Origin: an uncultured Pelagibacteraceae bacterium
Lineage (GTDB): Bacteria; Pseudomonadota; Alphaproteobacteria; Pelagibacterales; Pelagibacteraceae
DNA: 64,000 nt
Direction of reading: 5' to 3'
NCBI GenBank assembly: GCA_902595595.1
Contig: CACJQX010000001.1
Span: forward strand, 177,102 to 241,101
Below are positions 35,756 through 41,258 of the stretch, one piece after another. Position 1 is the stretch's first letter, and each line of letters starts with the position of its first letter. The notes under the pieces were generated by a model. The model was not told the DNA's origin. It made no database searches and saw nothing but the letters and a program-made list of their open reading frames with translations. The position numbers and the translations under genes are program-made.

Positions 35756-36319
35756 ATGAAAAATCTTTTCATATTTTTTATTATCTTGTTTTCTTTAAGT
35801 AATTTATCAAATGCCAAAGAAAATTTAGCATCTGTAGATAGTCTTTTTCATATTGATCAAATGAATTCGCACGATGAAAATTTTGCATTATATTTTAAAA
35901 CCCGTGAAAAAGCTGTCTTAGCTCGAGGAGAAAATTCAAATTATATTAATGATTTTCCAAAAGATCTTTATATTTATAACTATAAAACAAAAGAGTCTTT
36001 GCCATTAATCTCTTATGAATGGTTTCCCAAAACTGCAAAATATTTTTTGCAAGAGTATGATTTCCCAGTTTTCCCAGATGATTTTGCATATTATCTTTTA
36101 AAAGATAACAAAACTCTGGTGATGATTAGTGCTGTAAAAAGTTTAAAAGCTAATTTTAAATTTGATATTATTGAAAAAAAGTTAGAGCTTTATCCTGTAA
36201 ATGGAAAATTTGATTTTATTATTTCTTCTATAGCTAAAAATTGTGGACATTATGAATTTAGAGAAAATTATAAGTGTAGTTTTTATAAACCTTTAATTTC
36301 TAGTACCTTAATTAATTAA
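35756..36319 (+). CDS. Hypothetical secreted protein
   Basis: 187 aa with signal peptide (LFSLSNLSNAKEN); 8-bp convergent overlap with ftsY end. Confidence 0.7.
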   Translation: MKNLFIFFIILFSLSNLSNAKENLASVDSLFHIDQMNSHDENFALYFKTREKAVLARGENSNYINDFPKDLYIYNYKTKESLPLISYEWFPKTAKYFLQEYDFPVFPDDFAYYLLKDNKTLVMISAVKSLKANFKFDIIEKKLELYPVNGKFDFIISSIAKNCGHYEFRENYKCSFYKPLISSTLIN

Positions 36320-37229
36320 TTTGAGTAAATGCTTCTGCGAATTTTTCGGCCTCAAAAATTTGCAAATCATCTTCTTTTTCACCTAATCCAAGGGCAATAA
36401 TTGGTAGTTTATATTTTTTAGCAACTGCTAAAAGGATACCTCCTTTTGCTGTACCATCTAACTTTGTCATAATAAGACCAGTTATTGGAATAATTTTATT
36501 AAATTCTTCAACTTGATTAATTACATTTTGACCTGAAGTTGCGTCCAAAACTAAAATAACATCATGTGGAGCATCAGGATCAATTTTTTTAGTAACGTTT
36601 GCAATTTTTTTATATTCTTCCATCAAATTTTTTTTATTTTGTAATCTCCCAGCTGTATCGATTAAAACTTGATTGAAATCATTATTTAATGCCTCTTCAA
36701 TAGCCTTGTAGGCAACTGATGCAGGATCAGAGCCTTGAGATGATTTTGTAATTTGAACATCAACTTTGTTTGCCCAATTTTCTAACTGTTCTATGGCTGC
36801 CGCTCTAAAAGTATCTGATGCAGCTAGCATTACTTTATTTCCATTACCTTTTAATATTTTACTTATTTTTCCAATAGTAGTTGTTTTTCCAACACCATTG
36901 ACACCTGAAATTAATGTCGCATTTAATTTTTCTTTTTTTTTGAAGAATTCAATATTTTCTAAAGGTTTCATTATTGAAATAATATAATTTTTTAAAATAT
37001 TATTTATTTCTTCGGTTAAATCTTTATTGGGATCAATTTTTGTTTGAGAAATTATTTCTCTTATTTCTGAAGCCGAAACAATACCAACATCGGATTGAAT
37101 TAAGTAATCTTCAATTTTGTCTAATGTTTTGTCATCAATCTCTTTTTTTACAACTATATCTCTTAAACCCGTTGTAAAAGCTGAGGCACTTTTTTTAAAA
37201 CCTGATTTAAATTTCTCAAAAATTCCCAT
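36312..37229 (-). CDS. ftsY: Signal recognition particle receptor FtsY
   Basis: SGVNGVGKTTTIGKIS, DTAGRLQNKKNLM, TKLDGTAKGG. Confidence 0.95.
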   Translation of the reverse strand: MGIFEKFKSGFKKSASAFTTGLRDIVVKKEIDDKTLDKIEDYLIQSDVGIVSASEIREIISQTKIDPNKDLTEEINNILKNYIISIMKPLENIEFFKKKEKLNATLISGVNGVGKTTTIGKISKILKGNGNKVMLAASDTFRAAAIEQLENWANKVDVQITKSSQGSDPASVAYKAIEEALNNDFNQVLIDTAGRLQNKKNLMEEYKKIANVTKKIDPDAPHDVILVLDATSGQNVINQVEEFNKIIPITGLIMTKLDGTAKGGILLAVAKKYKLPIIALGLGEKEDDLQIFEAEKFAEAFTQIN

Positions 37230-38053
37230 TAAATTTTAAAATTTATCTCCTCAATATCTGAAACTGGTCCTTTCATATGAATACTATTGTTTTCATCAAT
37301 TGAAATTGTCAATCTACCTGTAGAAAATTCAATATCAACTTTATCATTTACCAGTCCGTTTTGTTTTGCGGCAAAAGCTGTTGCGCAAGCTGCAGTTCCA
37401 CAAGCTTTGGTAAGTCCAGCTCCTCTTTCCCAAACTCTAACTTTTATCAATTCTTTGTTAACAACAGTTGCTAAAGTAACATTACATTTTTCTGGAAATA
37501 GAGAGTGGGTTTCGATTTTTGGTCCAATTTTTTCAATTTCAAAATTTTCGTTATTATTAACAAAAAAAACTACATGTGGGTTTCCAACATTTACAGCAAT
37601 TCCACCAGAAAATTCGTTATTATTTTTGTCATTAATTTTAATTCCTAAATTATTCGTATTTAATTCTTTAGACAATGGAATCTCATCCCATTTTGTTTTT
37701 GCAACACCTATTTCTGTAGAAACAATTTTATCTCCAACAATATTTGATTTTAATTTGCCAGATAAAGTTGTTAGAACAATTTCTTTTTTGTTATTTTCTT
37801 TACCTAATAAATCAGCAATACATCGCGTACCATTTCCACACGCACCAGACATTCCTCCATCTGAATTATAAAAATCTAGTGAAGCATCTGAAATATCATT
37901 TTTTTTAATCAATATGAGTTGATCACAACCAATAAATTTTCTGTCACAAATCTTTATTATTTGCTCTTTCGTCAAATTTGTAATTGTTTGCCTATTATCT
38001 ATAATGACAAAATCATTACCTAAACCGTCCATTTTAAAAGCTTTAATATCCAT
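37229..38053 (-). CDS. dapF: Diaminopimelate epimerase
   Basis: KMDGLGNDFVIID, SGACGNGTRC, ERGAGLTKACGTAACA. Confidence 0.95.
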   Translation of the reverse strand: MDIKAFKMDGLGNDFVIIDNRQTITNLTKEQIIKICDRKFIGCDQLILIKKNDISDASLDFYNSDGGMSGACGNGTRCIADLLGKENNKKEIVLTTLSGKLKSNIVGDKIVSTEIGVAKTKWDEIPLSKELNTNNLGIKINDKNNNEFSGGIAVNVGNPHVVFFVNNNENFEIEKIGPKIETHSLFPEKCNVTLATVVNKELIKVRVWERGAGLTKACGTAACATAFAAKQNGLVNDKVDIEFSTGRLTISIDENNSIHMKGPVSDIEEINFKI

Positions 38054-38100
38054 ATATAGATATTTAACTTATTTATTGACTTTTTGAACCTCTATTATAG

Positions 38101-38206
38101 GTTGTTGCCGTTTCCGCAAAAACATTAACTTTGCGGTGTCTTTGGAAACAAAGAGATCGACACTAGTCAGCGAGGGTTCGCCCACTAGTGCGTTACTGCT
38201 ATGCGT
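38101..38206 (+). ncRNA. Structured 5' leader RNA upstream of ffh (three hairpins)
   Basis: CCGCAAA(38114-38120)/TTTGCGG(38130-38136); TCTTTG-GAAA-CAAAGA (38139-38154); CACTAGT(38161-38167)/ACTAGTG(38184-38190) enclosing GGG-TTCG-CCC; GC-rich in an AT-rich genome. Confidence 0.75.
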
Positions 38207-38213
38207 AATAAAT

Positions 38214-39572
38214 ATGTTTGAAAATTTAACAAATAAATTTGAAGAAATTTTTTCTTCTCTGAAAAAGGCACCTTCACTTGATGAAGCTCAAGTAGATGAA
38301 GGTTTAAGAGGTATTAGGCAAGCCTTACTTGAAGCAGATGTCTCTTTGGATGTTGCAAAAGATTTTATTGAAAAAGTTAAGCCAAAAGCATTAGGCCAAG
38401 AGATAATAAGGTCTACCTCTCCTGGGGATATGGTTGTTAAAATTGTTTATGATGAGCTTGTAGACTTATTAGGTGCAACAAATAATGAGATAAACTTAAA
38501 CGCAGTACCGCCTGTGCCAATGATGTTAGTTGGGTTACAAGGTTCTGGAAAAACAACAACAACAGCAAAATTAGCAAAATTTTTAGAAAACAATAAAAAG
38601 AAAAAAGTGATGATGGTCAGTCTAGATATTTATAGACCAGCTGCTCAAGAACAACTTAGATCTTTAGGAGAACAAAATAATATTTTAACTTTACCTATTA
38701 TAGAAGGTCAGCAACCTGCTGATATTTGTAGAAGAGCAATAAGTGCCGCTAATTTAAATGGAGCTGAAATAATTTTATTTGATACTGCTGGTAGAACTCA
38801 AATTGATTTACAAATGATGAGTGAGATTAAGCAAATTGAAGCTGTCATTAATCCAACAGAAACTTTCTTAGTTGCAGATTCTTTAACAGGTCAAGTTGCA
38901 GCCTCAGTGGCAAAAGAATTTAAAAACACAGTTAATTTATCTGGAATTATTTTAACTAGAGCTGATGGTGATGCAAGAGGTGGAGCCGCAGTGAGTATGA
39001 AATATGTTTCAAACGTTCCAATTAAATTTTTAGGTGTAGGAGAAAAAATAGATAATCTTGAAGTATTCCATCCAGATAGAATTGCAAACAGAATACTTGG
39101 TATGGGGGATATCGTATCCCTTGTAGAAAAGGCGGCTCAAGATTTAGGAGAAGAAAATCTTAAAAAGGCAGAGGAAAATTTAAAAAAAGGTCAATTCTCT
39201 ATGGAAGATTATTTATCTCAATTAAGACAAATGAAAAAAATGGGTGGCATTGAGGGAATTATGTCTTTTATGCCAGGAGTTTCTAAAATTAAATCTCAAA
39301 TGGATTCAGCGGGAATTGATGAAAGTATAATTACTAAAAATGAAGCTGTTATTTTATCAATGACAAAAAAAGAAAGAGAGAACCCAAAAATAATAGATGG
39401 TTCTAGAAAAAAAAGAATTGCTAATGGCTCTGGCACAGATCCGGCCACTATCAATAAATTGCTTAAGCAATTTAAAATGATGTCTGAAATGATGAAAAAG
39501 ATGTCAAAAGGTAATCTGAAAGGTATGTCTGATAAAGGTATACCGCCAGAGCTATTTAACCAATTAAAGTAA
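38214..39572 (+). CDS. ffh: Signal recognition particle protein Ffh (true start MFENLTNKF; track ORF from 38136 reads through leader RNA)
   Basis: GLQGSGKTTTTAKLA, DTAGRTQID, TRADGDARGGAA, C-terminal M-domain. Confidence 0.95.
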   Translation: MFENLTNKFEEIFSSLKKAPSLDEAQVDEGLRGIRQALLEADVSLDVAKDFIEKVKPKALGQEIIRSTSPGDMVVKIVYDELVDLLGATNNEINLNAVPPVPMMLVGLQGSGKTTTTAKLAKFLENNKKKKVMMVSLDIYRPAAQEQLRSLGEQNNILTLPIIEGQQPADICRRAISAANLNGAEIILFDTAGRTQIDLQMMSEIKQIEAVINPTETFLVADSLTGQVAASVAKEFKNTVNLSGIILTRADGDARGGAAVSMKYVSNVPIKFLGVGEKIDNLEVFHPDRIANRILGMGDIVSLVEKAAQDLGEENLKKAEENLKKGQFSMEDYLSQLRQMKKMGGIEGIMSFMPGVSKIKSQMDSAGIDESIITKNEAVILSMTKKERENPKIIDGSRKKRIANGSGTDPATINKLLKQFKMMSEMMKKMSKGNLKGMSDKGIPPELFNQLK

Positions 39573-39584
39573 AAAGGAGAAGAA

Positions 39585-39998
39585 ATGTTAAAATTAAGAT
39601 TATCAAGAGGTGGAACAAAAAAACGTCCTGTTTATAAAGTTGTTGTTGCCGACAGCCGTTTTGCAAGAGATGGAAGATTTATAGAAAAGGTTGGTTTCTT
39701 TAATCCTCTATTACCAAAAGAGAAAAAAGAAAGAGTGGGTCTAGAAGCTGAGAGAATTAAATATTGGCTTGGTCAAGGAGCTCAACCAACAACTAGAGTA
39801 GCAAGAATTTTAGGTGAGAACGAACTAATGCCTATGCCTGCAAATGGAAATAATCCAAATAAAGCAGTGCCAAAAAAAGAGAGAAATAAAAAAGAAGAGG
39901 ATAATAAAGAAGCTCCTAAAGAAGAAGCTCCTAAAGCAGAAGCAGCTCCAGCAGCAGAAGCTCCTAAGGAAGAAGCTCCAGCAGAGGAAAAAAAATAA
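39585..39998 (+). CDS. rpsP: 30S ribosomal protein S16 with low-complexity C-terminal tail
   Basis: [25 protein letters not shown]; tail [30 protein letters not shown]. Confidence 0.95.
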
Positions 39999-40012: not shown

Positions 40013-40699
40013 ATGTGGCAAGCTCAAGTGTTTACACTTTATCCAGAGATTTTCCCTGGTCCTTTGTCTAAAGGACTTTATGGAAAAGCTTTATCAAATA
40101 ATTTGTGGAAACTTAAAGTTGTAAACATAAGAGATGCAGCTGACGACAAACATAAAACAGTTGATGATACACCTTATGGGGGTGGTTCAGGGATGTTGTT
40201 AAAAGCAGATGTTCTCGCAAAGTCTTTAGATAAAAACAAAAATGAGAGTGAGAGAATTTTATACTTATCACCAAAAGGAAAAAAATTTGATCAAAATTTA
40301 GCAAAAGAGCTAGCTAATGAAAAATCTCTGTCTTTAATTTGTGGTCATTTTGAGGGTGTGGATGAAAGAATACTTTCAACAAGAAATATTGAGGAAATTA
40401 GTATTGGAGATTATGTTTTGTCAGGCGGAGAGTCAGCGGCATATGTAGTTATAGATAGTATTTTAAGATTGCTGCCAGGTGTATTAGGAAATGAAAACTC
40501 TAAATTAGATGAAACCTTTGAAAATGGTCTTCTAGAGTACCCTCAGTATACAAAACCTCAAATTTGGGAGGAAAAAGCTGTGCCAGACGTACTATTATCA
40601 GGTGATCATAATAAAATTAAACACTGGCGTTTATCTCAATCTGAGGCTATAACACGCGTCCGAAGACCAGATTTATGGGAAAAATATAAGAAGAATTAA
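40013..40699 (+). CDS. trmD: tRNA (guanine-N1)-methyltransferase TrmD
   Basis: [34 protein letters not shown]. Confidence 0.95.
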
Positions 40700-40715
40700 C
40701 TTGATAAATATTAAC

Positions 40716-41258
40716 ATGAAAACAATTGAAGAAATAAACCAGCATAACGTTAACAAAATTCTTTCAGAGAAAAAAATTCCAGAATTTTATCCTGGAGATG
40801 TTGTTAAGGTTGGTGTGAGAATTACCGAGGGTAAAAAAGAAAGAATTCAATATTTTGAGGGAGTATGTATTGCTAAAAAAAGCAGAGACCTAAACTCATC
40901 TTTTACAGTTAGAAAAATTTCCTTTGGAGAGGGTGTTGAGAGAACTTTCCCATTATTTGGAACTTTAATTGATTCAATTAAGGTTATTAGATCAGGTAAA
41001 GTAAGAAGAGCAAAACTTTACTATCTAAGAGATAGAACTGGTAAATCAGCAAGGATTGCTGAAAAAATTAGAAAAAAAATTGGTATTGATATCGAGGCAA
41101 AACCAGAAACAGTTACAGAGGAAAATGTAGCTCCTGCAGTAGAAGCACCAAAAGAAGAAGCTTCTAAAGCAGAAGCAGCACCTAAAGAAGAGGCGGCTCC
41201 ATCAGCAGAGGCTCCTAAAGAAGAACAAAAATCAGAAAGCTCTAAAGAAAAAAAATAA
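40716..41258 (+). CDS. rplS: 50S ribosomal protein L19 with low-complexity C-terminal tail (ATG 40716 preferred over TTG 40701)
   Basis: [41 protein letters not shown]; tail rich in A/E/P/K/S. Confidence 0.93.

Follow-up and report, generated by a model that had tools for sequence, protein, structure and literature searches.

A conserved three-hairpin leader with a competing helix upstream of ffh in SAR11 and other Alphaproteobacteria

The leader of the ffh gene in the window, a 64,000-nt stretch of a SAR11 genome (G000, contig C1), comprises three consecutive hairpins (P1, P2 and P3) and a helix, P2ext, that competes with the base of P1, and these features are conserved upstream of ffh. An Rfam search matched the family RF01793, named "ffh", at 38146-38198 on the + strand with 56.9 bits (gathering cut-off 35, E 3.6e-8), along the full length of the model (positions 1-52). 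The structured leader proposed here by the initial annotation is real, and the Pelagibacter 'ffh' motif that it named is this family, described by Meyer et al. (2009, PMC2704228) as one bulged hairpin 5' of ffh with a function then unknown. The same work found the motif in Pelagibacter, Rhodobacterales, Sphingomonadales and Rhizobiales, described it as absent from Rhodospirillales and Caulobacterales, and posed as an open question how bacteria balance Ffh against SRP RNA. Our leader is therefore a rediscovery of a catalogued element, with the same position between dapF and ffh, the same gene, the same P3 hairpin with its conserved C.C bulge and the same host class, the Alphaproteobacteria. New here are the full three-hairpin architecture, the class-wide spread and the competing helix: whereas the family was described as a single bulged hairpin, we find P1, P2, P2ext and class-wide covariation in addition. 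Judging from sequence comparison, we consider it fairly probable (about 0.6) that the element is a 5'-terminal leader of the ffh-rpsP-trmD-rplS operon, bistable, acting in cis and, most likely, autogenously controlled by a protein.

The ffh gene, which encodes the signal recognition particle GTPase, a factor of protein export, occupies 38214-39572 on the + strand; its ATG at 38214 lies 16 nt past the end of the Rfam match, and its relatives share the MF(E/D) start position. On the same strand it is followed by rpsP (39585-39998), trmD (40013-40699) and rplS (40701-41258). The divergent dapF starts at 38053, which leaves 38054-38213 as the intergenic region. An ftsY-like gene (36312-37229, - strand) is found on the other side of dapF, so that the two SRP GTPases are encoded about 1 kb apart. 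A promoter is predicted at 38076-38103 on the + strand, with a -35 box TTGACT (38076-38081), a 16-nt spacer and a -10 box TAGGTT (38098-38103). A simple consensus promoter scan of the window did not list this site; SAR11 leaders and those of many other alphaproteobacteria have the pattern TTGAC, 16 or 17 nt, TANNNT ahead of the element. The RNA is accordingly predicted to start at about 38109-38112, that is 3-5 nt before P1. The outer stem of the lowest-energy fold, between 38102-38108 and the tail, was discarded: it lies mostly 5' of the predicted start.

P1 (38114-38136, + strand, as are all parts of the element) pairs CCGCAAA at 38114-38120 with TTTGCGG at 38130-38136. It is followed by P2 (38139-38154), in which TCTTTG at 38139-38144 pairs with CAAAGA at 38149-38154, and by P3 (38161-38190), the core of RF01793, in which CACTAGT at 38161-38167 pairs with ACTAGTG at 38184-38190 and encloses GCGA/TCGC. 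All three stems had been placed correctly by the initial annotation. The published model contains the third hairpin only, P1 and P2 being absent from the RF01793 structure. The folding of the window leader beats that of 198 of 200 dinucleotide shuffles (z = -2.9). We assembled 100 distinct SAR11 leaders from two families and eleven genera, and computed pairing statistics on 60 distinct leaders in a plain MAFFT alignment. Across P1, P2 and P3, 97.9% of the cells in this alignment are paired, versus 91.6% when the partners are shuffled and 37-45% when they are slid; changes on both sides occur at ten stem pairs. The stem covariation in other SAR11 ffh leaders, on which the initial annotation had staked its proposal, is thus present. 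In P1 alone 95.2% of the cells are paired, with G-C replaced by A-U in eight rows, and P2 has both-side changes at all six of its pairs. The GNRA-type loop ascribed to the second stem is not conserved: GAAA occurs in only 24 of the 60 leaders.

Two open reading frames within the leader were also considered. A short ATG frame at 38201-38221 (ATG CGT AAT AAA TAT GTT TGA) overlaps the ffh start codon; it is probably due to chance, since its ATG is missing from most SAR11 leaders. A longer frame that starts with GTG at 38136 is both in frame and open in just 11 of the 100 leaders, and we rejected the leader as a coding sequence.

RF01793 was found in 268 of 297 genomes of the SAR11 order. Twenty of the genomes without a match were searched for Ffh; 18 had no match at E <= 1e-60 and two had fragments lacking a start. 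None of the 20 thus has a complete ffh at the cut-off used, which attributes the absence of the motif there to an ffh gene missing or fragmented in the assembly. A model built from SAR11 leaders only (R1) matches over its whole length at the majority of 64 loci from other alphaproteobacteria. A second three-hairpin model (R2), trained on SAR11 and other alphaproteobacteria, finds the element in 205 of 387 genomes of the class, compared with 112 for Rfam, and recovers it at 11 of 20 ffh loci taken from genomes where Rfam gives no match. The RF01793 model spans only half of the element, and the rebuilt model nearly doubles the number of genomes found. A pattern scan of the genome collection gave many chance matches, of which only those confirmed by the three-hairpin model were kept. 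Carriers include Rhodobacteraceae, Hyphomicrobiales, Sphingobium, Stakelama, Kordiimonas and a Caedimonas MAG. Among 60 diverse hits outside SAR11, 59 are followed on the same strand, no more than about 100 nt away, by the N-terminus of Ffh, and the sixtieth ends at a contig edge. No match was found outside the class in a phylum sample of 299 genomes, where all 69 matches fall in Alphaproteobacteria.

The class-wide alignment comprises 96 leaders and was fitted to P1, P2 and P3. P2ext was left out of the alignment model, and the alignment is therefore unbiased toward it. In P3 the pairs covary, and the C.C mismatch (38168/38183) is present in 96 of 96 leaders, in agreement with a bulged hairpin with conserved bulge cytosines. 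The neighbouring A.C (38169/38182) changes to C-G or G.U with strong covariation, and so is a pair position, leaving C.C as the sole true mismatch. Of the two alternative interiors suggested for the third stem, GCGA/TCGC is invariant and GGG/CCC is not. An extension of P3 by AUCG/CGAU is 49-85% paired and shows no compensation; we did not retain it. The 3' tail (38191-38213 in the window) has a class-wide consensus of approximately CGNUUNNNGYUUGG by column counts and keeps a near-fixed distance from P3, also in leaders whose start codon lies another 100 nt away. In the window the last stem ends 23 nt before the ATG, not 8-20 nt as had been estimated, and the distance varies, reaching 40-140 nt in many other alphaproteobacteria. 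Simple occlusion of the ribosome-binding site is therefore not a conserved feature.

P2ext (38134-38159) pairs CGGT at 38134-38137 with ATCG at 38156-38159, including a G.U pair between 38136 and 38157. It lengthens P2 and takes up three bases of P1 (38134-38136), so that it excludes the base of P1. A competing pairing overlapping two of the stems had been anticipated, and one exists in the form of this helix. The particular pairing put forward, GTGTC (38136-38140) with GACAC (38159-38163), can be written in the window but is not conserved: half of the SAR11 leaders cannot form its pair 38139-38160. The four pairs of P2ext are intact in 60 of 60 SAR11 leaders, with C-G replaced by U-A in eight and one G.U invariant. 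RNAalifold, run unguided, chose P2ext instead of P1 in SAR11 and, independently, in 13 other alphaproteobacteria. Across the class the helix occurs as CGGU/AUCG, UGGU/AUCA (SAR11 sub-group, families f17 and f44), CGGC/GUCG (family f104) and GUGU/AUAC (family f33), and covariation was seen in five lineages. At the shared base in alignment column 86, the P1 partner usually changes alongside the P2ext partner (G-C-G to A-U-A or C-G-C). A P2ext pair is broken in a few lineages, with C.A in leaders L229, L235 and L244. In some lineages (leaders L250, L252 and L257) the second hairpin has shrunk to P2ext and a tetraloop, with the G.U pair kept, which shows P2ext to be the conserved base of that hairpin.

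The covariation of the helices was assessed in the 96 leaders against a phylogeny-aware null model made for this analysis (not R-scape). Several pairs of P2 and P3 and one pair of P1 reach E<=0.017. In P2 these are four of the six pairs; in P1 it is column pair 26-85 (G-C/C-G/A-U), and column pair 25-86 has E 0.6. Taken one by one, the P2ext column pairs do not reach significance (E about 20-30 over 5886 pairs), and three of the four were among the best pairs outside the model in an APC-corrected scan. As a four-pair helix, P2ext was equalled at its place by none of 300 null alignments, and none contained a helix with equal pairing anywhere. The leader thus has two exclusive helices, both with covariation, P2ext being supported as a whole helix and weakly by its single pairs. 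The predicted energies of the two folds are close: they differ by 0.9 kcal/mol in the window and by a median of 1.9 kcal/mol, with either sign, over 67 leaders.

The main alternative is that nothing switches, and that the leader has one fold, P2ext with P2 and P3, in which P1 is shorter or absent and whose role is to bind a protein or to shield the mRNA at its 5' end. The constancy of P2ext in SAR11, where P1 is the less completely paired helix, and the choice made by RNAalifold both speak for such a static structure. So does leader L247, which retains P2ext yet has U.U in P1, and P1 would come almost first in the RNA, in the position of stabilising 5' hairpins. P1, however, covaries in its own right at columns 26-85, the shared base is compensated toward both of its partners, and 41 of the 67 leaders are predicted to be more stable with P1. 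We therefore rate a static leader as unlikely, if the most serious competitor. The leader is probably able to flip between the two folds, which would let the cell tune its amount of Ffh.

Another way in which the choice of fold could act is through the 5' arm of P1, which, once freed by P2ext, might pair with the tail before the start codon and block translation. Some SAR11 clades have strong complementarity of this kind (ACUUCC/GGAAGU in L038 and UUUUCC/GGAAAA in L039; mean z -0.92 over 41 leaders), and the lowest-energy fold of the window from the predicted RNA start contains a comparable CGCA/UGCG. The arms, however, match their own tails no better than those of other clades (mean rank 0.47); the window gives no signal (p 0.41), and the effect is weak outside SAR11 (mean z -0.29). 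Such a block is correspondingly improbable.

The element might instead be a separate small RNA that acts in trans once termination after P3, or processing, has set it free. Rfam indeed assigns RF01793 the type 'Gene; sRNA', RNA-seq of Bartonella bacilliformis lists an 'ffH leader RNA' among its sRNA peaks (PMC7717549), and a candidate RNA of about 120 nt was predicted between dapF and ffh of Sinorhizobium meliloti, with an array signal (PMC2573895). For peaks of this kind the authors of the Bartonella study prefer an interpretation as cis-acting leaders (PMC7717549). The window has no terminator-like site, and no T run is conserved after P3; the same observations are against a transcription attenuator. 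In addition, the element stays beside ffh in 59 of the 60 diverse loci, which fits an action in cis. We consider a trans-acting product distinctly improbable.

The position upstream of ffh, together with the GNRA-like loop of some species, could also be taken to indicate the 4.5S SRP RNA or a mimic of its Ffh-binding helix 8. The initial annotation had argued that the leader is not 4.5S RNA, rightly so: this gene lies on another contig (G000:C4:12877-12969, L001), between pheA and dnaX. It scores 36 bits, under the Rfam cut-off of 40, and would therefore be missed by annotation that relies on the cut-off. RF00169, which covers the apical loop and helix 8, has no match in 38040-38260 up to E = 10, and P3 is by this search unlike the Ffh site of SRP RNA. 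The leader and the 4.5S RNA thus have in common the SRP pathway and Ffh as partner, and differ in that the latter is a separate gene here and no likeness of P3 to helix 8 was found. The GNRA-like loop, moreover, is not conserved. Identity with SRP RNA is refuted, and the chance of either form of this explanation being right is very slight. A duplex of the leader with the genome's own 4.5S RNA was also considered and dropped, as it is no better than shuffled (27% as good).

For a cis-acting bistable leader we propose the following sequence of events. The leader, as the first 100 nt or so of the ffh mRNA, would fold into P1, P2 and P3 right after the predicted transcription start. Because P1 and P2ext compete for one CGG, two exclusive states would result: one with P1 formed and a short P2, the other with P1 open at its base and a long P2. 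Recognition probably takes place at P3, whose C.C mismatch is invariant and whose flanks are conserved. Binding of a factor would tip the balance toward P1 or P2ext and thereby set how strongly ffh and the downstream genes are expressed. This factor is most likely an autogenous repressor encoded in the operon: Ffh in the first place, as an RNA-binding protein encoded beside the element, and then S16 or L19. A switch in cis is the simplest reading of an element that keeps its place before ffh across the class, starts where the RNA is predicted to start and contains two exclusive helices. The Bartonella leader transcript and the array signal from the dapF-ffh region of S. meliloti also speak for this reading.

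Control by S16, L19 or some other ribosome-linked product of the operon amounts to a reading of its own, in which the element is a ribosomal-protein leader with ffh as first gene by chance. Autogenous leaders are typical of ribosomal-protein operons, and rpsP is downstream of ffh in 20 of 20 sampled motif-bearing alphaproteobacteria, with trmD and rplS in most of the stretches fetched. S16 and L19, however, are not among the primary rRNA binders that usually act autogenously, and the element directly precedes ffh. Gene order itself is uninformative between Ffh and S16 or L19, since it is conserved and rpsP follows in all 20 genomes sampled. We think control by a ribosomal protein rather unlikely. 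The ffh leader resembles known autogenous leaders of ribosomal-protein operons (the rpsB and rpsL motifs of PMC2704228, the L20 leader and the S15 leader) in being a structured 5' leader of a translation-related operon encoding RNA-binding proteins. It differs from them in that ffh is the first gene and the recognition structure is unlike theirs, with no other Rfam match. With riboswitches that use exclusive helices it shares two helices with common bases and near-balanced energies; unlike these, it shows no sign of a small-molecule pocket or a metabolite gene. A protein is more likely than a metabolite as its ligand. Our literature search found neither later work on the mechanism of the ffh motif nor binding data for an operon protein on the leader.

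The Rfam model of this family is truncated, with many members missed. The three-hairpin structure and its competing helix supply the exact bases to mutate, so that a function long open can be tested at single bases, and work on the mechanism can move from SAR11 to culturable Rhodobacteraceae or rhizobia. Tentatively, and with somewhat less than even odds, the leader may be an ancient two-state switch, built on the mutual exclusion of P1 and P2ext and retained in SAR11, Rhodobacteraceae and other lineages of the class; it would then be the missing regulator by which Ffh synthesis is adjusted to how much SRP RNA, or how many ribosomes, the cell has.
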